From contig NZ_CP029425.2 in NCBI RefSeq assembly GCF_002278135.3, positions 2,580,001 through 2,644,000 on the forward strand: 64,000 nucleotides of DNA. Direction: 5' to 3'. Under the pieces are notes generated by a model, which saw nothing but the letters and a program-made list of their open reading frames with translations, made no database searches and was not told the origin of the DNA. Below, piece by piece: positions 26,563 through 46,376 of the stretch. This stretch comes from Bradyrhizobium ottawaense (lineage in GTDB: Bacteria; Pseudomonadota; Alphaproteobacteria; Rhizobiales; Xanthobacteraceae). A program made the translations under genes and the position numbers. Position 1 is the stretch's first letter, and each line of letters begins with the position of its first letter.

Positions 26563-27189
26563 TCAGAAAGTCGCGGCCATTGCGGCCAGCCGTCGATGGG
26601 CCCTGTCCCGCGCGGCCTCGATCGGCTGTTGCGGTCCCGTGGTTGGCCCGATCGGCACGAAACGGACATTGTCGATACCGATGAAGCGCAGGATGTCGCG
26701 CAGGTAAGGCGTTGCCATGTCGATGCGGCCGCGGTTCATGCCGGTGGCGAAGTCGCTGCCACTGGCGAGAATCACCAGCGTCGGCCGATCCTTGAGCAGC
26801 GGGAGATAGCCCTGTGACGGGTCGAACCGGAACGTCAGCCCGGGCTGGACGATGATGTCAAACCACTGCTTGAGCTTGTAGGGAATGCTGAAGTTCCACA
26901 TCGGCGTCGAGATCAGCACGCGATCGGCCAACGAAAACCGCAGCGCCATTCGCTCGGCCTCGGCAAAGCTGTCGCGTTGCGCGTCGTTGAAGGCTTGCCC
27001 GTTCATCCGTGCATATTTGGCCTCGGCGATGGGGCCTGAGAATTCCGGCATCCGCTCCCGCCACAGGTCCACGACATCGAGGTCCCAGTCCGGCCGGGCC
27101 TGGCGAAAGCCGTCAAGAAAGACGCGCGCGCCGGCACTCGACTCGGAGTCAGGGCGCGGCGAGCAGGAGAGGTGCAAAATCTTTGCCAC
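26563..27189 (-). CDS. azoR: FMN-dependent NADH-azoreductase / NAD(P)H dehydrogenase (flavodoxin fold)
   Basis: A 208-residue protein: MAKILHLSCSPRPDSESSAG binds FMN phosphate, PMWNFSIPYKLKQWFDIIVQ (~94-113) is the flavin-ring motif of AzoR-type enzymes, and LVILASGSDF follows. These homodimeric cytoplasmic enzymes reduce quinones and azo compounds with NADH. It starts 3 bp from the stop of the lactonase-isochorismatase fusion gene upstream, so it is the last gene of the long minus-strand operon. There it could reduce a quinone formed by the pathway. Confidence 0.88.
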   Translation of the reverse strand: MAKILHLSCSPRPDSESSAGARVFLDGFRQARPDWDLDVVDLWRERMPEFSGPIAEAKYARMNGQAFNDAQRDSFAEAERMALRFSLADRVLISTPMWNFSIPYKLKQWFDIIVQPGLTFRFDPSQGYLPLLKDRPTLVILASGSDFATGMNRGRIDMATPYLRDILRFIGIDNVRFVPIGPTTGPQQPIEAARDRAHRRLAAMAATF

Positions 27190-27192
27190 CGC

Positions 27193-28764
27193 TCATCCCA
27201 ACGCCCTGATGACGGCATCCGCCCTCGTGACGATCGCCACGTTCTGCATGGCAAAATTAATCGACGCATTGTGCCAGTCGGCGTTCATGGTCGAGCAGCA
27301 ATCTTCGGGGACGATCATGAAGTAGCCCTTGTCTGCCCCGGTGCGGGCGGTGTGCTCGACCGACATGTTGGTCCAGGCACCGGTGTTGATGATCATGTCG
27401 CGCCCGGTCGCCTTGAGGATTGTCTCCAGCCGCGTGCCCTCCCACGCGCTCATCCGCATCTTCTCGACGACGAAATCGCCGGGCCGGGGCTCGAGGCCGG
27501 AGACGGGCGCCGCGCCCCAGCTTCCACGCACCATCGCCTTGCTGTCGACGAGGCCTTCGAACAGCGGTGCGTTCAGCGTGACACCCGGCGCACCCGGCTC
27601 GACGACGAACCAGACGTGGATGATGGCGACGCCGCGGGCCCGCGCGGTCTCCGCGAGACGGCGGACATTCTCGACGACATGTTGCTGTTTCGCATGACCG
27701 GGAGCGCCGGACTCGGCGAACGCGCCGCCGTCCATGATGACGTCGTTCTGCAGGTCCTGGATGATCATGGCGCAGCGCTGCGGATCAAGCCGCATGTCGC
27801 CGTCAGCGAGGATAGGCGCCGGCGAGGCGCTTGCCGCCTGGCCGCCGCTGCTTCGCCGGCCGGCCATATAGGGCTCGTGCCGCGGACCGACCTTGGTCGG
27901 AATGGCATAGACCGAATGTGTCGAGGTCAGATACAGCGTGCGGAAATCCGGCCCGCCCCAGGCGAGGTTGGCGACCATCTCGGGCGCGCGGACCTTGCCG
28001 AGCAGCTCGCCGCGCGGCGAATAGACCCAGACGCCGCCGGGCGCGGTGACCCAGATATTGCCGTGCTGATCGCACTTCATGCCGTCGGGCAGGCCGGCTT
28101 CGAGCTCGGAGCGGATGCCGCTTGCGAACACCCGCGCATTCGACAGCGAGCCGTCGGCGTTGACGTCGAAGACGCGGATCAGCGCCTGCACGGTGTCGTT
28201 GACATAGAGCAGCTTCTCGTCCGGCGAGAAGCACAGGCCGTTCGGCTGGTCGAACAGATTGCGCTCGACCACGAGCTTCGGTTCGCCGCCGGGCACGAGG
28301 CGATAGACGCCCTGGAAGCCGAGCTGGCGCGGCCGCTCCACGCCATAGACCGGCATCCGGCCGTACCAAGGGTCTGAGAAATAGATCGCGCCGGAGGAGT
28401 GCACGCAGACGTCGTTCGGGCTGTTCAGCTCCTGGCCCTGGAAGTGCGAAGCCAGCACCTCGCGCCGCCCGTCCGGCCGTTCGCGGATCAGCGACGAGGT
28501 CGCGTGCTCGCAGACGATCAGATTGAGCTCGGCATCATAGGTCATGCCGTTGCACTTGTTCGAGGGACGCTTGACCTCGGCCACGCCGCGCCGCGCATCC
28601 CAGCGCCGGCGCACGTCACCCGGCATGTCCGAGAACAGCAGATAGTGATCGACCGGATGCCAGATCGGTCCCTCCGTGAAGTCAAAGCCGGTGCCGACCT
28701 GCGCGACCGGCGCATAGGGGTCGATCAAAGTTTCGAATTCGCTTCGCAAGGTGACGTGCGTCAT
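27193..28764 (-). CDS. SMP-30/gluconolactonase fused to isochorismatase-like hydrolase lacking the catalytic Cys
   Basis: A 523-residue two-domain protein. Residues ~10-300 form an SMP-30/LRE beta-propeller lactonase: FTEGPIWHPVDHYLLFSDMP (metal Glu), SPNDVCVHSSGAIYFSDP (Asn and Asp ligands), FDQPNGLCFSPDEKLLYVND. A linker rich in Gly/Ala/Ser (~304-322) leads to an isochorismatase-like domain (~328-523). That domain has catalytic Asp (AMIIQDLQNDVI) and Lys (VVEKMRMSAWEGTRLE), but the nucleophile site reads NTGAWTNMSVEHTAR where the family has TNxCVExTAR: Cys is replaced by Ser. It may be inactive, use Ser, or bind ligand only. It sits with two other hydrolases in the operon. Confidence 0.88.
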   Translation of the reverse strand: MTHVTLRSEFETLIDPYAPVAQVGTGFDFTEGPIWHPVDHYLLFSDMPGDVRRRWDARRGVAEVKRPSNKCNGMTYDAELNLIVCEHATSSLIRERPDGRREVLASHFQGQELNSPNDVCVHSSGAIYFSDPWYGRMPVYGVERPRQLGFQGVYRLVPGGEPKLVVERNLFDQPNGLCFSPDEKLLYVNDTVQALIRVFDVNADGSLSNARVFASGIRSELEAGLPDGMKCDQHGNIWVTAPGGVWVYSPRGELLGKVRAPEMVANLAWGGPDFRTLYLTSTHSVYAIPTKVGPRHEPYMAGRRSSGGQAASASPAPILADGDMRLDPQRCAMIIQDLQNDVIMDGGAFAESGAPGHAKQQHVVENVRRLAETARARGVAIIHVWFVVEPGAPGVTLNAPLFEGLVDSKAMVRGSWGAAPVSGLEPRPGDFVVEKMRMSAWEGTRLETILKATGRDMIINTGAWTNMSVEHTARTGADKGYFMIVPEDCCSTMNADWHNASINFAMQNVAIVTRADAVIRALG

Positions 28765-28785
28765 CGGTCGATCCCCAAGATCATC

Positions 28786-29634
28786 TCAAGCCGGGAACCA
28801 GTTGCGTGCGGGCAAGGACTGCACGATCGGTCCGGGGACCTGATCGTGCAGGCGCCCGACGACGTTGCCGCCTTCGATCTTGGCCGGGCGGTCGTGCACC
28901 GGCAGCAGATAGCGCGAATTGCTCAGCAGCTTCTTGATCGAGGCTTTCTCGGCGCGCTTGCTGGTGCCATGATTGCCCGTCGTGCGCGGCTCCCAATCGT
29001 GGATCTCGTTGAAGGGCGTCACGATCTGGTCGTTGAAATCGTAGATCACGTCGCCGCAGATGGTCGCAATCCCGTCGGCGGTCTCGACGATGACGTTCAT
29101 CGAGCCCTCCGTATGCGCATTGGCCGCGTCGCAATAGACGCCGGGCATCAGCTCGATCGGGCCGGTGATCTCTAAGTCGAGGAAGCGCAGCGCGCTCTTG
29201 GTGTGCAGCCGGTCGATCAGGTGCTTGATGTCGGGCGCCGGATATTGCGGATGCATCAGGCCGGAGACGGAATACTCGAGTTCCTTGCGGTTGAGCACGA
29301 CGGTCGTGTTCATCGGGAACAGATCGTCCTTGCCGGCGTGGTCGATGTGCAGATGGGTGTGGCAGACGAAGCGGACGTCGCCCATGCGCACGCCGTGGCG
29401 CGCGAGCTGGTTCTCGATCATGTTCTCGTGGTACTGCAGCCCGCGCATGCCCAGCGTCTCCATGATCTGGTTGGAGCGGTAGCCGGTGTCGACCACGACC
29501 GGATATTTCCCCCCGAGGATCAGGAAACCGAGGGTGAGGACGCGGCGGGTGCGACCGCAGTCGCGGCCGAGAACCAGAAAGCTCGATTCCAGCTCGATAT
29601 CGCCATAGTCCAGGATCTTGATCTCCAGCGCCAT
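28786..29634 (-). CDS. Metallo-beta-lactamase-fold lactonase (AHL-lactonase-like)
   Basis: A 282-residue protein started at ATG 29634 behind GAGGGAGGG; longer in-frame extensions lack a site. The two-metal motif HxHxDH is complete (CHTHLHIDHAG, His94, His96, Asp98, His99), with downstream NAHTEGSMN, ICGDVIYDF and LLPVHDRP supplying the remaining ligands. The arrangement matches N-acyl-homoserine-lactonase-type MBL hydrolases, so a lactone substrate is likely. As part of a catabolic operon it more plausibly opens a pathway lactone than a quorum signal, but both remain open. Confidence 0.85.
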   Translation of the reverse strand: MALEIKILDYGDIELESSFLVLGRDCGRTRRVLTLGFLILGGKYPVVVDTGYRSNQIMETLGMRGLQYHENMIENQLARHGVRMGDVRFVCHTHLHIDHAGKDDLFPMNTTVVLNRKELEYSVSGLMHPQYPAPDIKHLIDRLHTKSALRFLDLEITGPIELMPGVYCDAANAHTEGSMNVIVETADGIATICGDVIYDFNDQIVTPFNEIHDWEPRTTGNHGTSKRAEKASIKKLLSNSRYLLPVHDRPAKIEGGNVVGRLHDQVPGPIVQSLPARNWFPA

Positions 29635-29665
29635 TCGTTGCCCTCCCTCAACTGTTTCTTGTCTG

Positions 29666-30550
29666 TCAAAGCCGGTAGACGCGCGTCGCCGTCGTCTTGA
29701 AGATAGCGTCCTGCTGCTCCGCGCTGAACGGCGCGGCGGCGGTGCGAAAGGCGCCGACGAGCTCGAGATAGCTGGTCCACAATTTCTCGATGGGGAAATT
29801 GGAGCCGAACAGGCAGCGCTCGGCGCCGAAGATCGCGACGGTGTCGATGAGCACGGCGGCGATGTGCGCAGGATCGTTGCGATGGATGAAGGTGCCGAGC
29901 CCGGAGAGCTTTGAGACCACGTTCGGGCAGGCCGCGAGCCGGGCCATGCCGCTGCGCCAGGCGGCGCGGCCACCAGGAGAGAGATCCTCCAGCATGCCGG
30001 CATGCTGGAGGATGAAGGTCACGTCGGGGCAGGCTTCGGCCAGCGCTGCGGCATCCGGCATCTGCGGGGTGAACACCTGCAGGTCGAAGCTCCAACCATA
30101 GTCGGCGAGGCGCGCGACGTTGCGGCTGATCATCGGATCGGTGCAGAGATCGGGGCGGGCGGCAAAGCGATAGAGCGGGTTCTCGTGCCAGTGCAGCTGC
30201 ATGCGCACGCCGCGCACCAGCTTGTAGCGCTTCAGGCGATCGAGCTGCGGACGCACGTCGTCCACGGCGAAATTGGCATAGGCGACGATCGCGTGCGGCC
30301 AGCCGTGTTCGTCCGCAGTCTGCTGCACCCACGCGGCCTCGTCCTCGAAGCGGTCGTTGGCCCAGTTGGTTTGCACATAGACCGAACGCGTGACGCCGGT
30401 ATCCTTGAGGTCGTCGAGATATTCCTGGATCGGATAGTCGCGCCGGATCGGCTCATAGGGTCCGAAGATGCGCGGCTGCATGGGGCCGGTCAGCCAGGGC
30501 AGGTCGGCCTGCCGCCAGATGTGATGATGGCCGTCGACAATGTCGGTCAC
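29666..30550 (-). CDS. Amidohydrolase_2 family TIM-barrel hydrolase
   Basis: A 294-residue protein from GTG 30550, with AAGGAGAG just upstream; its start overlaps the stop of the VWA gene by 4 bp. N-terminal metal motif VTDIVDGHHHIWRQ (HxH), later VRGVRMQLHWHENP, FILQHAGML and CLFGSNFPIEKLW near the end, as in 2-pyrone-4,6-dicarboxylate lactonase and related metal-dependent hydrolases. It probably opens a lactone or decarboxylates a ring acid in the same pathway as the neighbouring lactonases. Confidence 0.87.
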   Translation of the reverse strand: MTDIVDGHHHIWRQADLPWLTGPMQPRIFGPYEPIRRDYPIQEYLDDLKDTGVTRSVYVQTNWANDRFEDEAAWVQQTADEHGWPHAIVAYANFAVDDVRPQLDRLKRYKLVRGVRMQLHWHENPLYRFAARPDLCTDPMISRNVARLADYGWSFDLQVFTPQMPDAAALAEACPDVTFILQHAGMLEDLSPGGRAAWRSGMARLAACPNVVSKLSGLGTFIHRNDPAHIAAVLIDTVAIFGAERCLFGSNFPIEKLWTSYLELVGAFRTAAAPFSAEQQDAIFKTTATRVYRL

Positions 30551-31668
30551 GCCGCTCTCCTTCGTCCCAGCGCCAGAATATGCGCGACGATCGACGCGCT
30601 CGAACCGCCATCCACGAGGTCGTCGACGAAGCGCTCGATGGCGATGAGCGCCTCGGTCTGCGGGTGGAAGCCGGGGCTTGTCGCCAGCGGCGTCAGCCAG
30701 CTCAGGCGCCAGGCCCGCCGCGACAATTTCGCGACGGCGTCGCGAAGCGCATCGGTCTCCCCACGCTCGAGTCCATCGGAGACGATGATCACGGCGGCGC
30801 CGCGCGCATAGCCGCCGAAGCGGGGCACGGCGAGGAAGGCCTGGAGTGCGTCGCCGATGCGGGTGCCGCCGTCCCAATCGCTGACCAGATGCGCGGCGGC
30901 GTTCATGGCCTGCTCGCGGCGCTTCAGTCGCAGCGGGCGGGTGATGCGGGTCAGCCGCGTGCCGAAGGTGAAGACCTCGACACTGGGCGCGGCCTGCACC
31001 AGCGCATGCGCGAGCTTCATGTTCTCCTCGGTGCGGCTCTTCATCGAGCCGGAGACGTCGATCAGCAGGAGCATCTTGCGCGGACGCTGGCGTCGCTTCA
31101 TGTGACCGAGCCGCAGAATCTCGCCGTCGCTGCGGACACTGTCGCGCAAGGTGCGGCGGAGATCGGCAAACGGCCCGCGGCGGGCGCGCATGCGGCGATG
31201 GCCGCGCCGTCGCGGCAGGCGTCGCGGCGCCTCCCGCGCCAGGCGGCGCAATGCGTCCGTGCTCGAGGCCGCCCCAAAGCGACGCTCGACCAGCGCCTCG
31301 CTTCGGGTCGCGGTGAGGCCGGACTCATTGGCCTCGTCGGAGAGCAGGGGGGCATCGTCGCCGCGGCCCTCTTCCTGGAGGCGGACTGTCTCGTCGTCCT
31401 CGCCCTCGTCGTCGCGCGCGATGGCCTCGCTGCCGCGGAAGTGGAGATCGAACAGCCGGTCGAAGGTCACACGGCGCTCGGGCGGCGGCGCCAGCGTCGC
31501 GAGGGCGGCTTGCCTGACGTGCTCGATGTCGCGCGGGCCGAGCAGCTCGATCGCGGCGAGGAATGTGGTGGTTTGCTCCGGTGCGACGGCAAAGCCGTTC
31601 GCGCGCAGCAGCGGGACGAAGGCGACGAAGATGCGCGCGGCGCGCGGGAGCTGCAGTTCGGCGCTCAT
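30547..31668 (-). CDS. VWA-domain protein, CoxE-like
   Basis: A 373-residue protein from ATG 31668. The N-terminal ~165 residues are charged and helical, with acidic and Arg-rich stretches. The C-terminal von Willebrand A domain (~185-373) has MIDAS motif LLLIDVSGSMKSRTE (DxSxS), then DWDGGTRIGDAL and IIVSDGLERGETDALRD. CoxE-type proteins work with a MoxR ATPase (CoxD) to insert or activate the molybdenum centre of CO-dehydrogenase-type hydroxylases. It is coupled to the MoxR gene by a 4-bp overlap, and the Mo-hydroxylase subunits lie just upstream. Confidence 0.87.
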   Translation of the reverse strand: MSAELQLPRAARIFVAFVPLLRANGFAVAPEQTTTFLAAIELLGPRDIEHVRQAALATLAPPPERRVTFDRLFDLHFRGSEAIARDDEGEDDETVRLQEEGRGDDAPLLSDEANESGLTATRSEALVERRFGAASSTDALRRLAREAPRRLPRRRGHRRMRARRGPFADLRRTLRDSVRSDGEILRLGHMKRRQRPRKMLLLIDVSGSMKSRTEENMKLAHALVQAAPSVEVFTFGTRLTRITRPLRLKRREQAMNAAAHLVSDWDGGTRIGDALQAFLAVPRFGGYARGAAVIIVSDGLERGETDALRDAVAKLSRRAWRLSWLTPLATSPGFHPQTEALIAIERFVDDLVDGGSSASIVAHILALGRRRAA

Positions 31669-32546
31669 GCGGTCGCCTCCGCGAGCATGGCGTCGAGCCG
31701 CGGCGAGATGAAATGCAGATCCTCTTCGTCCTTCAGCGCCACGCCGATCGAGCGCTTGAATGCATCCGGCCAGCGCGCGCCGCCCTTGTGCAGCAGCGTC
31801 GCGGCCTCGGCCCAGTCGACGGCCTCGGCAATGCCGGGCGCCTTGCTCAGCGGCTCGCGCCGCAGCCTCTCCACGGCTGCGACGACGGCGCGGGCCGTGG
31901 CCTCGGCGACGCTGGAGGCGCGCATCATGATGATCCGCGCCTCGCGCTCCGCGGTCGGATAGTCGATCCAGTGATAGACGCAGCGGCGGCGCAAGGCCTC
32001 GTGCAGATCGCGCGTCCGGTTCGACGTCAGAACGACCACGGGGCGCTCCGCCGCGCGAACCGTGCCGCGCTCGGGAATCGAGATCTGGAAGTCGGAGAGG
32101 AATTCGAGCAGAAACGCCTCGAACTCCTGGTCGGCGCGGTCGATTTCGTCGATCAGCAGCACGGTGGAATCGGGCGCGCGGAGCGCGGCCAGCATGGGAC
32201 GCTCGATCAGGAAGGTCTCGCCATAGATGTCGATGCTCTCGTCGCCGGCCTGGCGGATCGCCAGCATCTGGCGCGGATAGTTCCACTCATAGAGCGCGGC
32301 AGAGGCGTCGATGCCCTCGTAGCATTGCAGGCGGATCAGGCGCCGGCCGAGCACGGCGGCAATGGCTTTTGCGGCTTCCGTCTTGCCGACGCCGGGTGCG
32401 CCCTCGAGCAGCAGCGGCTTGCCGAGCGCGAGACCGAGATAGGCTGATGTCGCAAGGCCCTCGTCGGCCAGGTAATAGGCTGCCCGCAGCGCCTTCTCCA
32501 GCGCCTCCGGGCTGTCGATGCCGACGATGTTGCTGCGAACCGCCAC
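31665..32546 (-). CDS. MoxR-family AAA+ ATPase, CoxD-like
   Basis: A 293-residue protein from GTG 32546 (GAGGATCA upstream; the longer frame upstream lacks family sequence). Walker A GAPGVGKTEAAKAIA (~48-62), Walker B VLLIDEIDRADQEFEAFLLE, sensor-1 VVLTSNRTRDLHEALRRRC, the typical MoxR order. CoxD in Oligotropha is a chaperone-like ATPase needed for the [CuSMoO2] site of CO dehydrogenase. Here the adjacent hydroxylase does not have the CODH active-site loop, so a general role in Mo-centre maturation is inferred. Next in the operon after the catalytic subunit halves. Confidence 0.9.
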   Translation of the reverse strand: MAVRSNIVGIDSPEALEKALRAAYYLADEGLATSAYLGLALGKPLLLEGAPGVGKTEAAKAIAAVLGRRLIRLQCYEGIDASAALYEWNYPRQMLAIRQAGDESIDIYGETFLIERPMLAALRAPDSTVLLIDEIDRADQEFEAFLLEFLSDFQISIPERGTVRAAERPVVVLTSNRTRDLHEALRRRCVYHWIDYPTAEREARIIMMRASSVAEATARAVVAAVERLRREPLSKAPGIAEAVDWAEAATLLHKGGARWPDAFKRSIGVALKDEEDLHFISPRLDAMLAEATA

Positions 32547-32556
32547 GACTGATCCT

Positions 32557-33579: not shown

Positions 33580-33580
33580 G

Positions 33581-35173: not shown

Positions 35174-35181
35174 GGTTGACC

Positions 35182-35658: not shown

Positions 35659-35661
35659 GCT

Positions 35662-36480: not shown

Positions 36481-36482
36481 GA

Positions 36483-36926: not shown

Positions 36927-36928
36927 GG

Positions 36929-37366: not shown

Positions 37367-37375
37367 GGCGCGACC

Positions 37376-40291
37376 TCAGCTCTTCTTCCGCGGCCCGCGC
37401 TCGGCCGGCGGTTCCCCACCTTCGGCCGAGGGGGCCGGCGAGGCCGCCGGCTTGTCGCCGCCACCTCCGCCTCCGCCGCTCTTGCGCGCGGACTCCCTGA
37501 TCCCCTGCATGTCACGGGCTTCGCGGATCAGGCCCGGCATTTTGGAGAGACTGCCGCCTTCGACGCCGATGTCCGACAGGATCGAGTCGATTAGCGGCGC
37601 CTGGACGCGATAGCGCAGGGCGGAGTCGATGACTTCGTCGGTGGCGCTGCGGCCGCCATTGCCGCCGTGGCCGTTGCCGTTGAGGCCGTCGACCTGGAGG
37701 ATGCGGATGCCCTCGATCTTCTCCATCGGCTTGACGCTCTCGCGGACGATGCCCTCGATCCGGTCGAGCAGCTTGCGGCGGAACAGCGAGTAGCGCGCCT
37801 GATCGGTCAGCACGTTCTCGGCCTCGTTCAGCATCCGCTGCGCTTCGGCCTCGACGGCGGCGCGCACGCGCTCGGCTTCCGCGGCGATCCGGGTCTCCTC
37901 GGCCTGTTTCTCGGCGAGCAGCACCTCGACCGTCTTGCGCCGCTTGGCGATCTCGCTCTCGCGCGCGGTAATGACGCGCTCGGTGGCTTCGGTCGCGCGC
38001 ATCCGCGCTTCCTCGGCCGACGCCTTGGCGGCGGACTCTTCGAGAGACTTCAGATGGATGGCGATGGCCTTCTCCATCAGGACGGTCTCGACCTCCTTCT
38101 CGCGGTTGACCTCGAGCTTGCGCAGCTCGCGCTCGCGGCCGACGCGGGCTTCGTCGAGGCCGCGGTCGGATGCGATGCGCGCGCGCTCGACCTCCTCGCG
38201 AGAGGCGATCTCGGCCTCCTGCAGCGACTGCACCCGGGCGACTTCGAGCTGCTCGATCGAGCGCCGCCGCTCGATCCGGGCCGCTTCCAGCGCCTGCTCG
38301 CGCGACACGTCCGTGGTCTCGACCTCCTTGCGCGCGACGATCTCGGCCTGCCGGACCTGGCGATCGGCATCGATCCGCTCGGACTTCTTGGTCGACAGTG
38401 CGATGACGCGGTCCTCGTCGGCGATCTCGATCGCCTTCTTCTGCTCGATGTTGAGCACCTCGCGCTTCTTGGAGGAATTGATGCGCTCGGCCTCGAGCGC
38501 CAGATCGACCGTGATGCGCTGGCGCTCGATGGCGTCGCGCCGCTTCAGCTCGGCCGCCTCCAGCACGCCGGTGCGCTCGATCTCGAGCGAACGCGTATCG
38601 CGCTCGGCCTGGATGCGCTCGGCCGCGACCGCCTTCTCCTGGGCGATGCGGGCCGCCTCGATCGCCTCGCGCGAGGCGATGTCGGCCTCCTCGACGGCGC
38701 GGTTGCGGGCGATCTCCAGCGAGCGCACGCGCTCCTCCTGGGCGATCCGGCTGGCCTCGGTGGTCTCGCGCGCCGCAATGCCGGCGACGTCGAGTGCCTG
38801 GTTGCGCTCGATCTCCAGCTGCCGCGTGTTCTGCTCGGCGGCGATGCGCTCGGCGGCGAGCGTCCGCTCGCGGGCGATGCGGGCGGCCTCGACCGCGCGC
38901 TGCGCCTCGATCTCGGCCTCCTGGATGGTGCGAACCTGCTGGATCTCCAGCGCGCGGGTGCGCTCGTCCGAGGAGATGCGCTCGACATTGACGATCAGCG
39001 TCTGGGCGATGCGGGCCTTCTCGGTGGCCTCACGGGCGGCGATCTCGGCCTCGTCGACCGCGCGGGTGCGCTCGATCTCGCGGCGGCGCGTTTCCTCCTC
39101 GTTGGCGATGCGGGCATCGGTGACGACGCGGTCCTGCTGGATCCGCGCCTTCTCGATGGCTTCGCGCGCCGCGATCTCGGCTTCCTCGACCGTGCGCATC
39201 CGCTCGATCTCGCGCTGGCGCACCTCGCGCTCGGATGCGATCCGCGTGGTGTCGATCGAGCGCTGGTTGGCGATCCTCGTCTTCTCGATCTCCTCGCGTG
39301 CCAGCAGCTCCTTTTCCTCGATGGTGCGGGTCCGCTCGATCTCCTTCTGGCGGGTTTCGCGCTCGGAGGCGATGCGGGCTTCCGCAATCGCCTGGTCGTT
39401 GGCGATGCGGGCGCGCTCGATGGCTTCGCGCGCGGAGATCTGCGCCTGCTCGGCCTCGGTTTCGCGCAGCGCCCGTTCGCGGGCGACTTCCGTGCGCTGA
39501 AGCGCGCGGCGCATCTCGATGTCGCGTTCCTGCTCCAGCCGCGCGGTCTCGCTCTCGCGCTCGATCTCCAGCGCCTGCCGCTCGGCCTCCAGGTTGCGGG
39601 CGCGGATCTTGATCATCGAGTCCTGCTCGATGTCGTTGCGCAGCTTCCGCTTGGCCTCGATGTCCTGCATCAGCTGGGTCAGGCCTTCGGCGTCGAACCG
39701 GTTCGAGGGGTTGAAGAATTCGAGATCGGTCTGGTCGAGATCGGTGATGGCGACCGACTCCAGCTCGAGGCCGTTCTGAGCGAGGGCCTCCGCCGCGTTG
39801 GCCTTGACGCGGGCGACATACTCGCCGCGCTGCTCGTGCATCTGCTCGAGGGTCATTTCGGAGGCGATTGAACGGATCGCCGAGATGAACTTGCCGGCGA
39901 GGAGGGCATGCAGTTGCCCCGGCTCCATGGTGCGGCGGCCGAGGGTGGCGGCCGCGATGGACACCGCTTCGCGGGTCGCCTGGACGCGGACGTAGAAATC
40001 GGCCTCGATGTCGACGCGCATGCGGTCGCGGGTGATGACGGCGTCCTGCCGGGAGCGCACGATGCCCATCGGCAGCACGTTCATGTTGACCGGCGTGTAA
40101 TCGTGGATGAACGGCAGCACGAACGCGCCGCCATTGATCACCACGCGCTCGCCGAGGAAACCGGTCCGGACGAACGATGTCTCCTTGGAGGAGCGGTGAT
40201 AGAGCCAGTTCACGATATAGACGCCGACCACGATCACGACGATCGCGACGATCAGCCAGAGGATCAATTCACCGACGAGCATCCCCGACAT
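37376..40291 (-). CDS. Giant flotillin-like SPFH protein with long hendecad coiled coil
   Basis: A 971-residue protein from ATG 40291 (GGGAGG upstream). One TM helix at residues ~8-30 (LILWLIVAIVVIVVGVYIVNWL), then an SPFH/band-7 domain (~35-200; MRVDIEADFYVRVQATREAV, SIASEMTLEQMHEQRGEYVA). A very long coiled coil (~205-800) includes 44-residue repeats. A flotillin-type C-terminal segment (~800-890, NGHGGNGG) and a Gly/Pro-rich tail follow. Most flotillins are 450-650 residues, so the coiled coil is about twice the usual. Flotillins form membrane microdomain scaffolds. In a catabolic operon it may cluster the transporter and hydroxylase. Confidence 0.9.
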   Translation of the reverse strand: MSGMLVGELILWLIVAIVVIVVGVYIVNWLYHRSSKETSFVRTGFLGERVVINGGAFVLPFIHDYTPVNMNVLPMGIVRSRQDAVITRDRMRVDIEADFYVRVQATREAVSIAAATLGRRTMEPGQLHALLAGKFISAIRSIASEMTLEQMHEQRGEYVARVKANAAEALAQNGLELESVAITDLDQTDLEFFNPSNRFDAEGLTQLMQDIEAKRKLRNDIEQDSMIKIRARNLEAERQALEIERESETARLEQERDIEMRRALQRTEVARERALRETEAEQAQISAREAIERARIANDQAIAEARIASERETRQKEIERTRTIEEKELLAREEIEKTRIANQRSIDTTRIASEREVRQREIERMRTVEEAEIAAREAIEKARIQQDRVVTDARIANEEETRRREIERTRAVDEAEIAAREATEKARIAQTLIVNVERISSDERTRALEIQQVRTIQEAEIEAQRAVEAARIARERTLAAERIAAEQNTRQLEIERNQALDVAGIAARETTEASRIAQEERVRSLEIARNRAVEEADIASREAIEAARIAQEKAVAAERIQAERDTRSLEIERTGVLEAAELKRRDAIERQRITVDLALEAERINSSKKREVLNIEQKKAIEIADEDRVIALSTKKSERIDADRQVRQAEIVARKEVETTDVSREQALEAARIERRRSIEQLEVARVQSLQEAEIASREEVERARIASDRGLDEARVGRERELRKLEVNREKEVETVLMEKAIAIHLKSLEESAAKASAEEARMRATEATERVITARESEIAKRRKTVEVLLAEKQAEETRIAAEAERVRAAVEAEAQRMLNEAENVLTDQARYSLFRRKLLDRIEGIVRESVKPMEKIEGIRILQVDGLNGNGHGGNGGRSATDEVIDSALRYRVQAPLIDSILSDIGVEGGSLSKMPGLIREARDMQGIRESARKSGGGGGGGDKPAASPAPSAEGGEPPAERGPRKKS
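38069..39430 (-). repeat. Tandem 132-bp coding repeats (44-residue = 4 x 11 coiled-coil units)
   Basis: Protein residues 288-628 of the flotillin consist of eight units starting REAIExARI and ending near EEAEIAA. Seven are exactly 44 residues (four hendecads). The sixth (508-540) is 33, one hendecad shorter. A degenerate stretch (629-697) and a last 44-residue unit (698-741) follow. Eleven-residue periodicity predicts a straight or right-handed coiled coil. Units differ in sequence, so the repeat is old and under selection for length register rather than recent slippage. Confidence 0.85.
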
Positions 40292-40317
40292 CTTTTCCTC
40301 CCTCGAACCTTCAGGCG

Positions 40318-41151
40318 TTATCGCGCGCCGATCGCCTTGAATTGACGTACCTGCTCCGTCAACGCCCGCTCCACGGGAAGCCGTTCCATCGAGGAGGCCC
40401 CGTAGAAGCCGTGGCAATGGCGGGTGTTCTTCATGATGAAATCGGCGTCGGCGGGATCCGCGATCGGGCCGCCATGCGCCAGCACCAGGATGTCGGGATT
40501 GACGCTGAGCGCGGCGGAGGCCCAGGTGTCGATCTGCGCCGGACAGTCCTTCAGCTTCAACGCGGTCTGCGCGCCGATCGAGCCGCCGGTCGTCAAGCCC
40601 ATGTGGCAGACGACGATGTCGGCGCCGGCGATCGCCATCGCGGCGGCTTCCTTCTCGCTGAACACATAGGGCGTCGTCAGCATGTCCTTGTCGTGCGCCT
40701 TGGCGATCATGTCGATCTCGAGCGCGTAGGACATGCCGGTCTCTTCGAGATTGGCGCGGAAGGTGCCGTCGATCAGGCCGACGGTCGGAAAGTTCTGCAC
40801 TCCTGCGAAGCCGAGCGCCTTCAGCTGGTCGAGAAACGCGTCCATGTCGCGGAACGGATCGGTGCCGTTGACGCCCGCGAGCACCGGCGTCCTCGTGACC
40901 ACGGGCAGCACTTCGCCGGCCATCTCCAGCACGATGGCGTTGGCATCGCCGTAAGCCATCAGGCCCGCGAGCGAGCCGCGTCCGGCCATGCGGTAGCGTC
41001 CGGAATTGTAGATCACGATGAGATCGACGCCGCCGGCCTCCTCGCATTTGGCTGACAGGCCGGTGCCGGCGCCGCCGCCGACGATCGGCTCGCCGCGCTT
41101 CGCCATCTCGCGGAACCGCCTCAGAAGTGCTGCGCGTTCAAACCTTGGCAT
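40318..41151 (-). CDS. Phosphoenolpyruvate hydrolase family TIM-barrel protein (Tm-1 C-terminal type)
   Basis: A 277-residue protein from ATG 41151 (GAGGTGAGCG upstream). Family landmarks: [96 protein letters not shown]. This domain resembles PEP mutase/isocitrate-lyase-like barrels; in the plant antiviral protein Tm-1 it forms the C-terminal half after a UPF0261 domain. In this operon the UPF0261 domain is encoded by the adjacent gene, 3 bp away. Enzymatic activity in bacteria is not established. Confidence 0.88.
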
Positions 41152-41154
41152 CGC

Positions 41155-43365
41155 TCACCTCGCTAGTCTCCGCCGCGTGCCCGTGCGGCCGAACAGGGTT
41201 CGGAACGCACCGACGATGGCGGCGGCGAAATCGGGATCGTTGATGTTCTTGGGCGTGCGGATGAGCTGGCGATGGCCGGTCTGCCGCACGGTGCGCTCCA
41301 GCGTGCGGAACAGCGCGGCATCGGCGTCCGGATCCCAGAACGGCTGGCCCCGCGCATCGAGCGCGGAGACGCCGCCCTCGGGCAGGAAGAAGCGCACCGG
41401 GCCGTCCATCTGGTTGAGCCGCTCGCCGATCCAGCGGCCGACGCGCTCGTTCTCTTCCACGTTCGTCCGCATCAACGTCACTTGCGGATTGTGGACGTGG
41501 AATTTGCGGCCGCGGTAGCGCTCGGGAATGGTGTCGGGCGCGCCGAAATTGACCATGTCGAGTGCGCCGACCGAGCCGACATAGGGGATACGCGTGCGGA
41601 TGATCGCACCGAAGCGGTCCTCGGTTGCGGGAAACACGCCGCCCATCAGGAGATCGCAGACCTCCGTCGTGGTGAGGTCGATGATGCCGGCGAGCTGGCC
41701 GGACTCGACGAGTTTCTCCATGGAACGGCCGCCGACGCCGGTGGCATGGAAGACCAGGCACTCGACATCGTCGCGCAGCTCGGCGGCGATCTTCTGCACC
41801 GCCGGCGTCGTCACGCCGAACATGGTGATGCCGACCGAAGGCAGGCCGCCAGCCTCCCGTGCCGTCGCGGCGCGCGCATCCAGCCGCGCCTTGACCATGC
41901 CGGCAAGCGCATGGGCGCCGTTGGCCAGCACCGCGCGCGAGATCGAGTTCAAGCCCTGCACGTCGGTGACCGAGTGCATCATGGTGATGTCGGCCGGGCC
42001 GACATAGGGCCCGACATCGCCGGATGCGACGGAGGAGATGATCAGCTTCGGGACGCCGACCGGAAGCGCGCGCATCCCGGGGGCAACCAGCGACGCCGCG
42101 CCCGACCCGCCCGCCGTGATCACGCCGACGACATTGCCCTGGCGCCGTAGCCAGCTCGCGAACGCATCGGCCATCGCGGTCACGGCCGCGCCGCGGTCGG
42201 GGCCGAATACCGCGGCACCGCCGCGGCCGTGGTTGAGGGCGATCTCCTGCGCGGAGACATCGCAGCTGGAATGCTTGCCGCTGGTCGAGACGTCGACCAG
42301 CCGCGTACGCAGGCCGGTTTCGGCGATGATGTCGCGGATGAAGCGCAGCTCGAGGCCCTTGGTGTCGAGCGTGCCGACGACCAGGACGACAGGCGGGCCC
42401 GCGGTCTGCGCCGCCATCGGCTCGCGCTTGCGCCTTGCCGTCTCGTCGAGCCGCGCGATTTGCGTCGAGAGCGTGCGGGCTGCGGCCTCGATGCGGGCGA
42501 TCGGCACCGGCTGCGACCACCGCGTCGGCAGTGTCGGATTGGAGACGTAGATGCGGATCGGCCCGTCGCGGCGTGGCGCCGGCGCCGGTTTGGCGTCCGG
42601 GCCGGATGGGGGGATGTCGAGATCCGGCTCGAGCTCGGCGTGAAGCCCGACGCCGAGCAGGCGTTGCTGGAGCTCGCGGTCGGCGGCGAGCCGCGCGGAG
42701 TCGATGATGCGATTGATGCGGCCGTTGACCATGATGGCGACGTTGCGCGAGACCGCGGTGGCGACGCCGATATTCTGCTCGATCACGAGCACGGACATGT
42801 CGCCGTCCTCACCGAGCCGCAGCAGCATCTCCTCGACCTGCGCCACGATGACGGGCGCAAGTCCCTCGGTCGGCTCGTCCATGATCAGCAAATGCGGATT
42901 GGTGAGCAGCGCGCGCGAGATCGCCAGCATCTGCTGCTCGCCGCCGGAGAGCTGGCCGCCGCCGTGATCCCTTCGCTCGGCAAGGCGCGGGAAGGTGTCG
43001 TAGATGCGCTCGACCGTCCAGGCGCCGGAGCGCATGCCGCCGGCCAGCCGCAAATGCTCGTCGACGCTGAGCGAGCGCCACAGGCGGCGCCCCTGCGGTA
43101 CGTAGCCGACGCCGAGCCGGGCGATCTGGGCGGGCGGCCGCCTTGTGATGTCCGCGCCGCGGACACGGATCGACCCGCCGCTGACGCCGACCAGCCCCAT
43201 GATCGCCTTGCACAGCGTGGTCTTGCCCATGCCGTTGCGGCCGACGACGGAGAACACGCCGCTCTCGAGCGTGAGGTCGACGCTTTGCAGCGCGTGCGAG
43301 TGCCCGTAATAGACGTCGAGCCCGCGGACCTCGAGCCCGGCGGCGGAGCGACGGGCCTCATTCAT
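41155..43365 (-). CDS. Fusion: Liv-type ABC ATPase + UPF0261 (Tm-1 N-terminal-like) domain
   Basis: A 736-residue protein. Residues 1-240 are a LivF-type ABC ATPase: Walker A VVGRNGMGKTTLCKAI (~40-55), signature QLSGGEQQMLAISRALL (~138), Walker B HLLIMDEPTEGLAPV, H-like VLVIEQN. A Pro-rich linker (~245-322) leads to a complete UPF0261 domain (~325-736): VVLVVGTLDTKGLELRFI, VFGPDRGAAV, GGSGAASLVAPGMRALPVGV, HATGVGGRSMEKLV, IDLTTTEVCDLLMGG. UPF0261 binds ATP in Tm-1. Its gene overlaps the LivG gene by 8 bp. I know of no usual reason for a transporter ATPase to carry this domain. Confidence 0.92.
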   Translation of the reverse strand: MNEARRSAAGLEVRGLDVYYGHSHALQSVDLTLESGVFSVVGRNGMGKTTLCKAIMGLVGVSGGSIRVRGADITRRPPAQIARLGVGYVPQGRRLWRSLSVDEHLRLAGGMRSGAWTVERIYDTFPRLAERRDHGGGQLSGGEQQMLAISRALLTNPHLLIMDEPTEGLAPVIVAQVEEMLLRLGEDGDMSVLVIEQNIGVATAVSRNVAIMVNGRINRIIDSARLAADRELQQRLLGVGLHAELEPDLDIPPSGPDAKPAPAPRRDGPIRIYVSNPTLPTRWSQPVPIARIEAAARTLSTQIARLDETARRKREPMAAQTAGPPVVLVVGTLDTKGLELRFIRDIIAETGLRTRLVDVSTSGKHSSCDVSAQEIALNHGRGGAAVFGPDRGAAVTAMADAFASWLRRQGNVVGVITAGGSGAASLVAPGMRALPVGVPKLIISSVASGDVGPYVGPADITMMHSVTDVQGLNSISRAVLANGAHALAGMVKARLDARAATAREAGGLPSVGITMFGVTTPAVQKIAAELRDDVECLVFHATGVGGRSMEKLVESGQLAGIIDLTTTEVCDLLMGGVFPATEDRFGAIIRTRIPYVGSVGALDMVNFGAPDTIPERYRGRKFHVHNPQVTLMRTNVEENERVGRWIGERLNQMDGPVRFFLPEGGVSALDARGQPFWDPDADAALFRTLERTVRQTGHRQLIRTPKNINDPDFAAAIVGAFRTLFGRTGTRRRLAR

Positions 43366-44140
43366 GGCCGCCTCCGAGATAAAGCTCCTGCACCTCGGGG
43401 TCGGACTGGATCTCCTCCGGCAGGCCCTCCTTGAAGATGCGGCCGTTGTGCATCATCGTGACGCTCTCGACGACGCGCAAGGCGACGTCCATGTCGTGCT
43501 CGATGATGATGTAGCCGATATGCGCCGGCAGCGAGGTCAGGATCTCGATCAGCTCGGCCCGTTCGGTCGGCGACAGGCCCGCGGCCGGCTCGTCGAACAG
43601 GACGAAGCGCGGGGCGCCGGCGAGCGCGAGCGCGATCTCGAGCTGGCGCTGCTGGCCGTGCGCGAGCTCCGCCACGCGCTGGTCTTTCACGGCGGCCAGA
43701 TGCACGGCCTGGACGAGGTTGTCGGCCGCATGCATCAGGGCATCGTTCTGTCCCGGCCGCAGCAACGAGAAGCGTCCGCGCGAGACGCCGCGGCAGGCGA
43801 GATAGACATTGTCCTGCACGGTGAGGCCGGGAAACAAGGCCGAGATCTGGTAGGTCCGGCGCAGCCCGCGGCGGATGCGTTCATAGGGCGGGAAATGCGT
43901 GACGTCCTCGCCGAAGAAGCGGATCGTGCCGGAGGAGGGCGCGAAGTCGCCGGTGATGCAGTTGAACAACGTGGTCTTGCCGGCGCCGTTGGAGCCGAGC
44001 ACGGCGCGGCGTTCGCCGGGCCGCACGGTGATGGTGACGTCGGTCAGCGCCGCGAGCGCGCCGAACAACCGCGTCACGCCGCGCAGCTCCAGCGCGGCGC
44101 CGGCGCCGACGGCCGAGAGGCGTTGGGCGACGCTATCCAT
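43358..44140 (-). CDS. Liv-type ABC transporter ATP-binding protein (LivG-like)
   Basis: A 260-residue ATPase: Walker A AVLGSNGAGKTTLFNCI (~47-63), Q-loop region, signature ELAHGQQRQLEIALALAG (LAHGQQR form typical of LivG), Walker B RFVLFDEPAAGLSP and switch IIIEHDMDVAL. It ends with the LivG tail GRIFKEGLPEEIQSDPEVQE. Pairs with the ATPase half of the fusion protein at the cytoplasmic face of the permeases. Overlaps genes on both sides by 8 bp. Confidence 0.92.
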   Translation of the reverse strand: MDSVAQRLSAVGAGAALELRGVTRLFGALAALTDVTITVRPGERRAVLGSNGAGKTTLFNCITGDFAPSSGTIRFFGEDVTHFPPYERIRRGLRRTYQISALFPGLTVQDNVYLACRGVSRGRFSLLRPGQNDALMHAADNLVQAVHLAAVKDQRVAELAHGQQRQLEIALALAGAPRFVLFDEPAAGLSPTERAELIEILTSLPAHIGYIIIEHDMDVALRVVESVTMMHNGRIFKEGLPEEIQSDPEVQELYLGGGHE

Positions 44141-45215
44141 GGCCGCGTCCTCCGCCCGGTCGATTTGCGGCAGGACGCCGGCTCTGGCGCCAGCGCTGCC
44201 ACAGGCCGATGACGCCGTCCGAGGACCAGAACACGATGGCGAGGAAACCGAGACCGATCAGCAGGCGGAAGCGGTTGCCGTCGAGGCCGAGCCTGACAAG
44301 GAAGTCGAGCGCGAAGGTGCGCAGCAGCACGAAGATCAGCGCGCCGATGAAGGGACCGATCGGACGCGTGATGCCGCCGACGACGGCGATGATCAGCACG
44401 TCGATGCAGGCCCCGACGCTGACCGAGCCCGGCGAGATCTGGCGGTAGTTCCAGACCTGGAGGACGCCGGCGAGGGCGGCCACGAAGGAGGCGAAGGCAT
44501 AGGCGGCGACGCGGTGCGCATTGACGTTGAAGCCGAGCGCCGCCATGCGCCTGGGATTGTCGCGCACGCCCTGAAGGGCGAGGCCGAACGGGGCGCGCGA
44601 AAGATATTCGACGGCGAAATAGCACAGCGCGGCAACCGCGAGCACGATATAGTAGAAGGGAATGTCGGCGCGCCAGTTCACGCCCCAGAAGTGCGGCGTC
44701 GCCACGGTGTTGATGCCGGTATGGCCGTTGAAAATCGCCCAGTTCTGGTTGGTGAAATAGTAGAAGGCCGCTCCGATCGCGAGCGTGATCATGATGGTGT
44801 AGATGCCTTCGGTGCGCACCGCGAGCGCGCCGCCGAGCGTGCCGAAGGCGGTCGCCAGCGCCAGCGCCATGGGGACCGCGAGCCACCACGGCCAGCCCAG
44901 GCTGATATTGGCGTTGCCGCTGACGCCGAACACGGCGACCATGTAGGCGGAGAAGCCCGCGATGGTGAGCTGCATCAGGCTGACCATGCCGCCATAGCCG
45001 GCAAGGAACATCAGGCTGAGCGCCATGATGCCGAGAATCAGCGTGGTCGCGAAGATCTCGATCAGGAAGAAGCCGCTCGCGATCAACGGCATGATCAGGA
45101 GAATGATCGCGACGATCCAGGCGGCGGGATTGTTGATCTCCGGCCATGTCCGCGCCGGGCGCTGCGCAACATCGGCGGGGCGAACGGTAACGCGGGCATC
45201 GTGGGCGAGCGACAT
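44133..45215 (-). CDS. Liv-type ABC transporter permease (LivM-like)
   Basis: A 360-residue protein with about ten TM helices after a polar N-terminus. LivM landmarks: ALSLMFLAGYGGMVSLMQLT, TEGIYTIMITLAIGAAFYYF, SRAPFGLALQGVRDNPRRMA (coupling loop, EAA-like) and GGITRPIGPFIGALIF. Moves an amino-acid-like or carboxylate substrate together with the LivH-like permease. Stop of the LivH gene and this start are 1 bp apart. Confidence 0.92.
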   Translation of the reverse strand: MSLAHDARVTVRPADVAQRPARTWPEINNPAAWIVAIILLIMPLIASGFFLIEIFATTLILGIMALSLMFLAGYGGMVSLMQLTIAGFSAYMVAVFGVSGNANISLGWPWWLAVPMALALATAFGTLGGALAVRTEGIYTIMITLAIGAAFYYFTNQNWAIFNGHTGINTVATPHFWGVNWRADIPFYYIVLAVAALCYFAVEYLSRAPFGLALQGVRDNPRRMAALGFNVNAHRVAAYAFASFVAALAGVLQVWNYRQISPGSVSVGACIDVLIIAVVGGITRPIGPFIGALIFVLLRTFALDFLVRLGLDGNRFRLLIGLGFLAIVFWSSDGVIGLWQRWRQSRRPAANRPGGGRGHG

Positions 45216-45216
45216 G

Positions 45217-46227
45217 TCAGCGCCTCGCCAACAGGCCTTGCGGCCGGATCGCCAACACCAGCACCATGATCAGGAAGGTCACGACGATGGCATAGGTCGG
45301 GATGTAGACCGAGCCGAGCTGTTCGGCGAGGCCGATGATCAGCGCGCCGAGCGCCGCGCCGGGGATCGAGCCCATGCCGCCCACGATCACGACGACGAGG
45401 GAGGCGAGCAGGAAGCGGATGTCCTCGCCCGGGGATAATGACTGGAAGGTGCCGCCGACGACGCCGGCGATGCCGGCAAGTCCTGCGCCGAACGCGAACA
45501 CCGCCACGAAGACGAGCTGGATGCGCACCCCGGTCGCGGCGAGGATATCGCGGTCGTCGACGCCGGCGCGGATGATCATGCCGGCGCGGGTGCGATTGAG
45601 CGCGAGCCACATCGCCACGCCGATCACGACGGAGGCGGCGAAGATCACCAGCCGCACCAGGGGATATCGGAGATAGACCGGCTCGCCCGAGGATTTGATC
45701 GCCGTGACCAGCGGCAGCTCGATGGGGCCGATCAGCCAGTTCGGCGTCTGGATCTGGTAGAAGTCGCCGCCACAGGCCCACAGCATGAGATCGGCGAACA
45801 CGATCGAAAGCCCGATCGTCACCATGGTCTGCCTGAGGTCCTGTCCCTCCATCCGGCGGAACACGATCAACTGGAGCAGGACGCCGACCAGGGCGGTGAG
45901 GATGAAGGCGACGATGAAGCTGAGCAGCCAGGAGCCGGTCGCCGTGCTGACGGCGTAGCCGACATAGCCGCCGAACAGATAGAGCGAGCCGTGCGCGAGG
46001 TTGACGTTGCGCATCAGGCCGAAGATCAGCGTGAAGCCGCTGGCGACGAGGAAGTAGAGTCCGCCGAGCGTGATGCCGTTGAAGACCGCGTTGAGGAAGA
46101 CGCGCTTGCGGCCGATGGCCTCTTCCAGGCCCGGCGGCCAGACCGCGAAGACCAGCCACAGCCCGACGGCAATGGCAATGATCGAGATCAGCGCCCAGGC
46201 CGGATGGCGTTCGACGAAGCGGCTCAT
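45217..46227 (-). CDS. Liv-type ABC transporter permease (LivH-like)
   Basis: A 336-residue permease with ~9 TM helices. AVFNGITLGGLYFLVASGFT, FGLMRNVNLAHGSLYLFGGY, LALNRTRAGMIIRAGVDDRD (coupling loop) and VVIVGGMGSIPGAALGALII are standard LivH blocks. First gene of the long operon on the minus strand. The 458-bp upstream gap to the AraC gene holds three palindromic repeats, so the operon's promoter may be hidden among them or lie at the AraC gene. Confidence 0.92.
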   Translation of the reverse strand: MSRFVERHPAWALISIIAIAVGLWLVFAVWPPGLEEAIGRKRVFLNAVFNGITLGGLYFLVASGFTLIFGLMRNVNLAHGSLYLFGGYVGYAVSTATGSWLLSFIVAFILTALVGVLLQLIVFRRMEGQDLRQTMVTIGLSIVFADLMLWACGGDFYQIQTPNWLIGPIELPLVTAIKSSGEPVYLRYPLVRLVIFAASVVIGVAMWLALNRTRAGMIIRAGVDDRDILAATGVRIQLVFVAVFAFGAGLAGIAGVVGGTFQSLSPGEDIRFLLASLVVVIVGGMGSIPGAALGALIIGLAEQLGSVYIPTYAIVVTFLIMVLVLAIRPQGLLARR

Positions 46228-46289
46228 GCTCTCGCCTCGTATCGCTTGCGGCGGGGCAATGGCATATCGTAAGCGGATTTTCCGCGGCC

Positions 46290-46332: not shown

Positions 46333-46376
46333 GCAGAGTATGCGGCAGCAATTTCAGCGGGGTCGATGCCGATTAG

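Follow-up and report, generated by a model that had tools for sequence, protein, structure and literature searches.

The window analysed here is a 64,000-nucleotide stretch of Bradyrhizobium ottawaense DNA (positions 2580001-2644000 of the 8.59-Mb contig NZ_CP029425.2); the nearest named proteins come from Bradyrhizobium. It contains an 18-gene operon on the minus strand, from position 46227 to 26563, that joins genes for an importer, Tm-1-family proteins, a giant flotillin, a predicted molybdenum (Mo) hydroxylase and several hydrolase-like proteins. Using the chosen start sites, 99.5% of this stretch was coding, intergenic distances ranged from -8 to +31 nucleotides (nt), and four pairs of genes overlapped: livM/livG, livG/livF, coxD/coxE and coxE/amh. 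The near-gapless run of 18 one-strand genes proposed in a sequence-only reading of this DNA was thus borne out. In the 5′ to 3′ direction, the first half encodes LivH, LivM, LivG, a LivF-Tm-1/UPF0261 fusion, a PEP_hydrolase-like TIM barrel, a flotillin, two SRPBCC proteins and a flavin adenine dinucleotide (FAD) subunit. The second half encodes a 2Fe-2S subunit, two Mo-binding subunits, CoxD-like and CoxE-like proteins, an amidohydrolase_2 protein, a metallo-beta-lactamase (MBL)-fold protein, an SMP-30/isochorismatase fusion and an azoreductase. The gene summary in the sequence-only reading had left out the CoxD ATPase, the CoxE protein and the two SRPBCC proteins.

That reading had also placed an AraC regulator and a periplasmic binding protein just upstream, and both were found there, on the minus strand. 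The AraC-family regulator lies at 46686-47513 (PF12833, E = 3.3e-22) and the substrate-binding protein (pbp) of a Liv/Urt-type importer at 47639-48985 (Peripla_BP_6, PF13458, 1e-47). The latter coordinates are those of the longest open reading frame (ORF); by eye, an alternative start near 48886 would suit a signal peptide. Against the NCBIfam UrtA and LivJ models, the binding protein gave matches only far under the cut-offs. Because the araC-livH and pbp-araC spacers measure 458 and 125 nt, respectively, pbp and araC need not be on the operon transcript. Within the operon stretch, terminator-like sites occurred at the level of shuffled sequence (8 on both strands versus 7.9 expected), and the search for internal promoters and terminators there yielded nothing above that background. 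The araC-livH spacer (46228-46685) contains long inverted repeats of the CCTCATCCTGAGGAG type, whose form is similar to that of a palindromic element dispersed through Bradyrhizobium genomes.

The first part of the operon, module A, comprises a Liv importer with a LivF-Tm-1 fusion, its TIM-barrel partner, a giant flotillin and the SRPBCC proteins. The importer genes encode a LivH/UrtB-like permease (45217-46227; PF02653, 3.4e-34), which scored 167 bits against the UrtB model (cut-off 250), a LivM-like permease (44133-45215; PF02653, 1.8e-34), a LivG-like ATPase (43358-44140; ABC_tran and BCA_ABC_TP_C) and a 736-amino acid (aa) LivF-like ATPase fused to Tm-1/UPF0261 (41155-43365). The Pfam domains of this fusion are ABC_tran at residues 26-166, UPF0261 at 326-494 and UPF0261_C at 509-724. 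Its Tm-1 part matched PDB entries 3wry (5.3e-96) and 9mpy (1.8e-55), and the fusion is one open frame in most relatives. The next gene encodes the PEP_hydrolase-like TIM barrel, the Tm-1 partner (40318-41151; PF09370, 8.1e-131; PDB 2p10, 1.3e-120). The "Tm-1-like proteins" of the sequence-only reading therefore resolve into one LivF-UPF0261 fusion, joined to the importer ATPase, and one TIM-barrel partner.

The giant flotillin anticipated in that reading is a 971-aa protein (37376-40291; PF15975, 1.4e-38; PF01145, 7.9e-17; start assigned by ribosome-binding site). Both the SPFH/Band_7 domain and the Flot C-terminal domain that characterize flotillins are present; by eye, they are accompanied by an N-terminal membrane helix and a long coiled coil between the two domains. 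Against the FloT equivalog model, the protein scored 24 bits, short of the threshold of 700. The two SRPBCC proteins (36929-37366; PF10604, 1.4e-29; and 36483-36926; PF10604, 3e-18) share 42% identity. A structure prediction for the first, made from six sequences, had a mean confidence (pLDDT) of 52.7 and was not used.

Module B consists of the FAD, 2Fe-2S and split Mo subunits, CoxD, CoxE and the amidohydrolase_2 protein. The FAD subunit is CoxM/XdhB-like (35662-36480; PF00941, 4.9e-30; PF03450, 4.1e-20) and scored 124 bits against the glyceraldDH_beta model (cut-off 350). The 2Fe-2S subunit is CoxS-like (35182-35658; PF01799, 2.7e-32) and scored 165 bits against the 4-hydroxybenzoyl-CoA reductase gamma model (cut-off 258). 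The Mo-binding protein is encoded by two genes, as the sequence-only reading had recognized: a 530-aa NdhL-like large subunit, corresponding to the N-terminal part (L; 33581-35173; PF01315 and PF02738), and a 340-aa NdhM-like medium subunit (M; 32557-33579; PF20256, 4.1e-59). None of these four subunits passed an NCBIfam cut-off. The two remaining Cox-type genes encode an AAA+ ATPase resembling CoxD (31665-32546; AAA_5, 7.2e-14), with 272 bits against the MadB_ATPase model (cut-off 475), and a CoxE-like protein with a von Willebrand factor A domain (30547-31668; PF05762, 1.5e-46).

The first-ranked solved relatives of L and M were the corresponding chains of nicotinate dehydrogenase, 3hrd_A (2.7e-60) and 3hrd_B (1e-46), in which the Mo protein is split at the same place; the scores to the nicotinate dehydrogenase subunits were only ~208 and 163 bits, respectively. 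The Glu of the GxKGxGE motif, which is catalytic in Mo hydroxylases, occurs in the medium subunit as GAKGPGE and was invariant in 10 of 10 aligned sequences. Moreover, L and M were encoded by separate ORFs in all 53 loci inspected (50 by script, L063 and L099 from ORF lists, and L078 by two overlapping frames). A frameshift or assembly error was considered as the source of the split and rejected because the split is kept in relatives. Judged from these features of the sequences, the enzyme is a predicted split (L/M) hydroxylase of the nicotinate dehydrogenase type. Nicotinate dehydrogenase, whose 3hrd structure we take to be from Eubacterium barkeri, hydroxylates nicotinate and carries a labile Se on Mo. 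The operon differs from it in that CoxD, CoxE, flotillin, Tm-1 and importer genes lie alongside, and in a C-terminal extension of L that is Pro-rich in the window (33581-34000). This tail accounts for the greater length of L in full operons (524-632 aa) and is absent from the compact loci measured (451-478 aa), described below.

The presence of CoxM, CoxS, CoxD and CoxE relatives in one operon recalls the coxMSLDE cluster of the aerobic Mo/Cu-type CO dehydrogenase. There is nonetheless virtually no chance that the operon encodes such an enzyme: the NCBIfam CO dehydrogenase models scored far under their cut-offs, the large subunit is split, NdhL and NdhM match better, and the 18 genes include no CoxF/XdhC-type domain. 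The assignment was rejected outright on the active-site loop, which reads AMRGFG where CoxL (8uem) has CSFR and so lacks the Cys. In CoxL, this Cys binds Cu.

The hydrolase genes form the 3′ part of the operon. The amidohydrolase_2 protein (29666-30550; PF04909, 2.4e-51) is related to L-fucono-1,5-lactonase but scored 104 bits against the corresponding model NF052480 (equivalog cut-off 400) and 2.1e-16 against PDB 4dlf. At the end of strand beta-8, amidohydrolase relatives carry a catalytic Asp, as in the GSDWP of 4dlf; the window protein has Asn (GSNFP), and Asn was present in 35 of 35 relatives, as GSNFP, GTNFP or GSNYP. In the MBL-fold hydrolase (28786-29634; PF00753, 1.5e-9), the metal motif is intact (HTHLHIDHAG), as was HxHxDH in all 20 relatives with a match. 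The fusion of an SMP-30/gluconolactonase-like and an isochorismatase-like domain (27193-28764; PF08450, 1.1e-57; PF00857, 1.4e-47) retained the key SMP-30 residues in 22 of 22 sequences. In its isochorismatase domain, Ser replaces Cys in 22 of 22 (TNMSxEHT versus TNCCVEST in 3kl2). This Cys is the nucleophile of RutB/isochorismatase-like cysteine hydrolases. The RutB chain 8bll also has Ser at this site; our guess is that it is a mutant. The "several lactonases" of the sequence-only reading can thus be kept in part: on motif evidence, the lactonase label is firm at the family level for the MBL and SMP-30 domains, and doubtful for the amidohydrolase and isochorismatase domains.

A set of lactonase-type folds could also serve to remove or recycle a signalling or plant-derived lactone, that is, quorum or hormone quenching and not growth. 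The MBL protein weakly matched the AiiA and 4-pyridoxolactonase models, and both Bradyrhizobium and Mesorhizobium live with plants. Those matches were far under the family cut-offs (51 versus 375 bits), quenching would not usually involve its own importer and a Mo hydroxylase, and the relatives listed for the SMP-30/isochorismatase fusion include the marine genera Ahrensia, Nisaea, Thalassobaculum and Sulfitobacter. We regard quenching as very unlikely.

The last gene encodes an azoreductase-like Flavodoxin_2 protein (26563-27189; PF02525, 7.7e-42). It was counted as an operon member in the sequence-only reading, and this holds for 16 of 20 Bradyrhizobium loci; no match was detected in 20 loci outside the genus, so the gene is peripheral.

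The LivF-Tm-1 gene was detected in 93 of 117 sampled Bradyrhizobium genomes, in two of them in separate pieces. In 20 loci picked to span 97-65% LivF-Tm-1 identity, the 14-gene order livF-pep-flot-srp1-srp2-coxM-coxS-moL-moM-coxD-coxE-amh-mbl-sgl was the same in every case. The claim that the gene set is one conserved unit therefore withstood a comparison of gene order. One of the 20, L038 of genome G045, carries interruptions in its livF, coxE and medium Mo subunit genes. Relatives of the medium Mo subunit occurred in 60 of 397 genomes of a sample of the order (25 of 141 genera) and in 16 of 398 genomes of a sample of the phylum, all 16 from the window's class. Among 20 such matches chosen outside Bradyrhizobium as loci for comparison, 14 had the full order (one without the TIM barrel and two without the MBL gene) and six were compact, with module B and not module A. 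A class-level search detected the SMP-30 fusion in 7 of 385 genomes. It added full loci L168 and L169, an order-sample match added L172, and genome G1029 (L170) had the fusion without the operon; in G988 the contig with the fusion is not long enough to judge. In total, the full operon was observed at 17 loci outside Bradyrhizobium, in 13 families besides the window's own (at least 14 in all), with few losses. The upstream order pbp-araC-livH-livM-livG-livF was kept in nine of nine stretches, seven from other families and two from Bradyrhizobium. Taken together, these data establish the operon as a genuine, compact unit with wide conservation, and chance falls far short of explaining its gene order.

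In a tree of the concatenated core from 50 loci (FastTree, midpoint root), the full operons formed one clade with a support of 1.0, and the compact cores fell outside it. The operons L036, L037 and L040, from divergent Bradyrhizobium, clustered with those of other families and had no azoreductase match; transfer is possible. In the three loci tested outside Bradyrhizobium, an Fe-dependent alcohol dehydrogenase gene lay between pbp and araC (L153:2164-4905, where an aldehyde dehydrogenase is also present; L154:3912-5159; and L155:6324-7448). This insert may be a clue to the substrate.

Module B also occurs by itself. A profile scan of genome contigs based on ten aligned medium subunits returned at least 570 relatives, from which the best 80 by likeness to a compact sequence were taken. 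These loci were mostly from Mesorhizobium, with Aestuariivirga, Bauldia, Chelativorans and others also represented. The 2Fe-2S, L and M subunits were present in 80 of 80 and FAD in 78. CoxD was found in 77 loci, the amidohydrolase in 74 and CoxE in 71, with several absences falling at contig ends; where 4.5 kb or more of downstream sequence was available (69 loci), the amidohydrolase was present in 67. Relatives of SRPBCC protein 1 adjoin many of these cores, most of them in Mesorhizobium (69 of 80 loci with an SRPBCC relative). The flotillin, MBL and SMP-30 proteins had no match at 1e-15 in any of the 80 loci, within flanks of up to 10 kb.

The neighbourhoods of some compact cores suggest a different chemistry, in which the Mo enzyme would make a lactone from an aldose or sugar aldehyde and the fuconolactonase- and gluconolactonase-like enzymes would convert it to the aldonate. 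Cores L063, L065 and L068 adjoin genes for RbsB-, XylF/ChvE- or AraG/AraH-like sugar transporters, L080 adjoins psicose epimerase-like and sugar-acid dehydratase-like genes, and L077 adjoins a 6-phosphogluconate dehydrogenase gene. In addition, the amidohydrolase is nearest to L-fucono-1,5-lactonase, an SMP-30 domain is present, and the aldehyde dehydrogenase of L153 is near 2,5-dioxovalerate dehydrogenase. As a control, Peripla_BP_4 genes were counted and numbered 17-106 in each of the six genomes of L063-L068; such a gene is thus often to be expected within 20 kb, which weakens the argument from sugar-type neighbours. In the part of the flanking ORFs that was scanned, one lay within 20 kb in two of the six loci, which was not significant. 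Elsewhere, compact cores are flanked by peptide-type, M19 or Amidohydro_1 genes (L073), the binding protein of the full operon is of the Liv/Urt and not the sugar type, and the amidohydrolase combines a score far under the cut-off with the Asp-to-Asn change. Sugar oxidation therefore appears rather unlikely.

Module A occurs apart from module B as well. In thirteen genomes a LivF-Tm-1 fusion is not linked to the medium subunit gene, and 12 of these were examined. Eleven (L173-L183) had livH, livM, pbp, livG, LivF-Tm-1, flotillin and SRPBCC genes with no Mo gene; two SRPBCC genes were matched in 10 of the 11. The remaining one, G343 (L184), has an operon of the full type that the end of its contig truncates. 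Amidohydro_1 adjoined livH in five of five stand-alone loci tested and FAA_hydrolase was present in two of two, as expected for an uptake and processing unit shared by catabolic operons. The stand-alone loci represent a sister operon type, module A without a Mo hydroxylase, possibly serving a separate undescribed pathway. In a LivF-Tm-1 tree, 15 full operons and 10 of the 11 stand-alone copies formed separate groups, with supports of 0.91 and 0.89, respectively; trees of the shorter TIM-barrel and SRPBCC proteins separated the two less cleanly. Based on the occurrence of A and B alone and on the grouping of full operons in the trees, the operon of the window most plausibly arose long ago through the joining of the two modules and the MBL and SMP-30/isochorismatase genes.

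The 60 order-sample genomes with a medium subunit allowed linkage of the modules to be counted. Thirteen were classed as compact by an identity of at most 72%, six of which were read. The other 47 all carried the LivF-Tm-1 fusion: by their listed places, 38 had it on the same contig within 13 kb, eight on other contigs of draft assemblies, and one, G215, ~177 kb away. Scattering of the genes in relatives, which the sequence-only reading had said would count against it, was thus not seen for the operon as a whole, and its halves do also occur apart.

These observations bear on whether the operon merely co-transcribes two unrelated jobs, with module A concerned with uptake and membrane organization and the oxidase of module B joined to it by chance. 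Modules A and B occurring apart, the different hydrolases beside lone A and the separation in G215 would all fit such an arrangement. However, in at least 14 families the joined genes have kept one order, SRPBCC relatives accompany compact B cores that have no A, and the L112 core, on a short contig of a metagenome-assembled genome, has separate UPF0261 and TIM-barrel genes ~7 kb downstream, next to genes for a solute-binding protein, a permease and a TOBE-type ATPase. In addition, unlinked A was commoner in genomes with a compact core (5/13) than in the others (8/337; Fisher 3e-5, with kinship ignored and G343 counted). We consider a chance union of two jobs unlikely.

Instead, we lean somewhat towards a single catabolic operon, built from the two modules, for one imported compound with a ring or an aldehyde. 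The combination of an importer, a Mo hydroxylase and hydrolases fits the catabolism of one imported compound, as the sequence-only reading had proposed. In the pathway we envisage, the Liv/Urt-type importer, whose second ATPase bears Tm-1, would bring in an organic compound, probably acidic or amide-like. At the inner face of the membrane, this compound or what is made from it would be acted on or held by the Tm-1/TIM-barrel pair together with the long flotillin and both SRPBCC proteins; flotillin and SRPBCC would keep a hydrophobic intermediate, or the machinery itself, at the membrane. The split Mo hydroxylase (FAD, 2Fe-2S, L and M), matured with CoxD and CoxE, would then use water-derived oxygen to hydroxylate an sp2 carbon in a heterocycle, furan or aldehyde, and the resulting lactam, lactone or ester would be hydrolysed by the MBL-fold and SMP-30 domains, perhaps with the other two hydrolases. 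Finally, the ATP-binding Tm-1 and the PEP-mutase-like TIM barrel might activate and cleave the carbon skeleton. Gene content, order, conservation, modular make-up, the split-subunit class and the intact motifs were observed directly. Import, Mo hydroxylation and hydrolysis are predicted from the protein families. That they belong to one pathway is our inference, as are its direction, its chemistry, its placing at the membrane, the Tm-1 step and the membrane platform.

Several points weigh against this proposal, which draws on gene content and predicted enzyme functions. The ability of A and B to exist apart leaves a single pathway unproven, and in G215 the LivF-Tm-1 and medium Mo genes are ~177 kb from each other. 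Three of the 80 compact cores (L078, L112 and L134) contain neither CoxD nor CoxE, so the two are not strictly required. The TIM barrel, found in eight of the 11 stand-alone A copies, is absent from three, and the gene order of L182 is altered. In every sequence examined, two of the four hydrolase domains, the amidohydrolase and the isochorismatase, carry another residue where their relatives have the catalytic one, and these two may therefore not be hydrolases. The flotillin or the SRPBCC proteins could serve the importer alone. Lastly, the Tm-1 step is a guess, since our literature search found no function for Tm-1/UPF0261 proteins in bacteria.

The sequence-only reading had cast the flotillin as a scaffold. 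As a scaffold for the hydroxylase, its role would not be specific because the flotillin and SRPBCC proteins travel with the importer/Tm-1 module in loci that lack the Mo hydroxylase. Similarly, the idea that the SRPBCC proteins are CoxG-like subunits of the Mo enzyme only was weakened by their presence with module A in the same loci. More tentatively, the Liv importer with LivF-Tm-1, the TIM barrel, the giant flotillin and two SRPBCC proteins might be a chassis shared among Alphaproteobacteria, a membrane platform for uptake and processing that takes varied enzyme sets. These sets would be the split Mo hydroxylase of the nicotinate dehydrogenase type here and Amidohydro_1 and FAA hydrolases in the sister type. 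If so, the Tm-1 family would have an enzymatic role, in an ATP-dependent step by which imported compounds are degraded, and flotillin would have a specific function in metabolism.

Individual parts of the operon have counterparts in known systems. The catabolism of L-ascorbate in Cupriavidus necator likewise relies on lactonases of both the gluconolactonase and the amidohydrolase family; it is not known to involve a Mo hydroxylase, Tm-1 or flotillin. The 3-hydroxypyridine dehydrogenase HpdA of the alphaproteobacterium Ensifer adhaerens HP1 is reportedly a Mo hydroxylase with a separate SRPBCC/CoxG-like protein, as here, and is said to lack a Tm-1/flotillin/Liv module and to have other ring-cleavage genes. 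One paper describes CoxG-like membrane anchors and mentions 3-hydroxypyridine dehydrogenase (PMC11962113). Bacterial UPF0261 and TBST proteins have been described as a co-evolving pair and the source of plant Tm-1 (PMC5028733). Both proteins are neighbours in the operon too; UPF0261 would be expected to stand alone or be fused to TBST, whereas here it is fused to LivF within a large operon. A Bradyrhizobium proteome paper mentions flotillin, with no locus given in the portion available (PMC11996625).

A second UPF0261/TIM-barrel locus lies in the genome of the window, at L158:10299-12476 (G000:C1:7314000-7331000). There, the PEP_hydrolase domain is fused to a sigma-54 activator and HTH_8, with genes for a MalK-like ATPase, a PfkB kinase and proteins weakly matching Liv proteins as neighbours; its Tm-1-type TIM barrel may perhaps serve as a sensor domain.

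The literature search found no published description of the operon or of its genes joined together, in agreement with the sequence-only reading, which knew of no described pathway with this gene set. As far as that search reached, this is an uncharacterised, probably catabolic, Mo hydroxylase operon of ordinary parts in an unusual and stable combination. It occurs in at least 14 families, and its LivF-Tm-1 gene in most sampled Bradyrhizobium, yet no published function was found. Three poorly understood elements meet in this one unit: bacterial domains ancestral to Tm-1, the virus-resistance protein of plants, a giant flotillin, and a split Mo hydroxylase of the nicotinate dehydrogenase type with CoxD and CoxE. 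Since modules A and B also exist apart, deletions could assign roles to each part, and the sister operon type provides a natural comparison.

Beyond the 3′ end of the operon, a UbiD gene lies on the minus strand at 22435-23958. Between the two, on the plus strand and convergent with the operon end, are two U32 peptidase-type genes (24601-26541), presumably a UbiU/UbiV-like pair. The U32 pair was found at the operon end in two of the 20 Bradyrhizobium loci.

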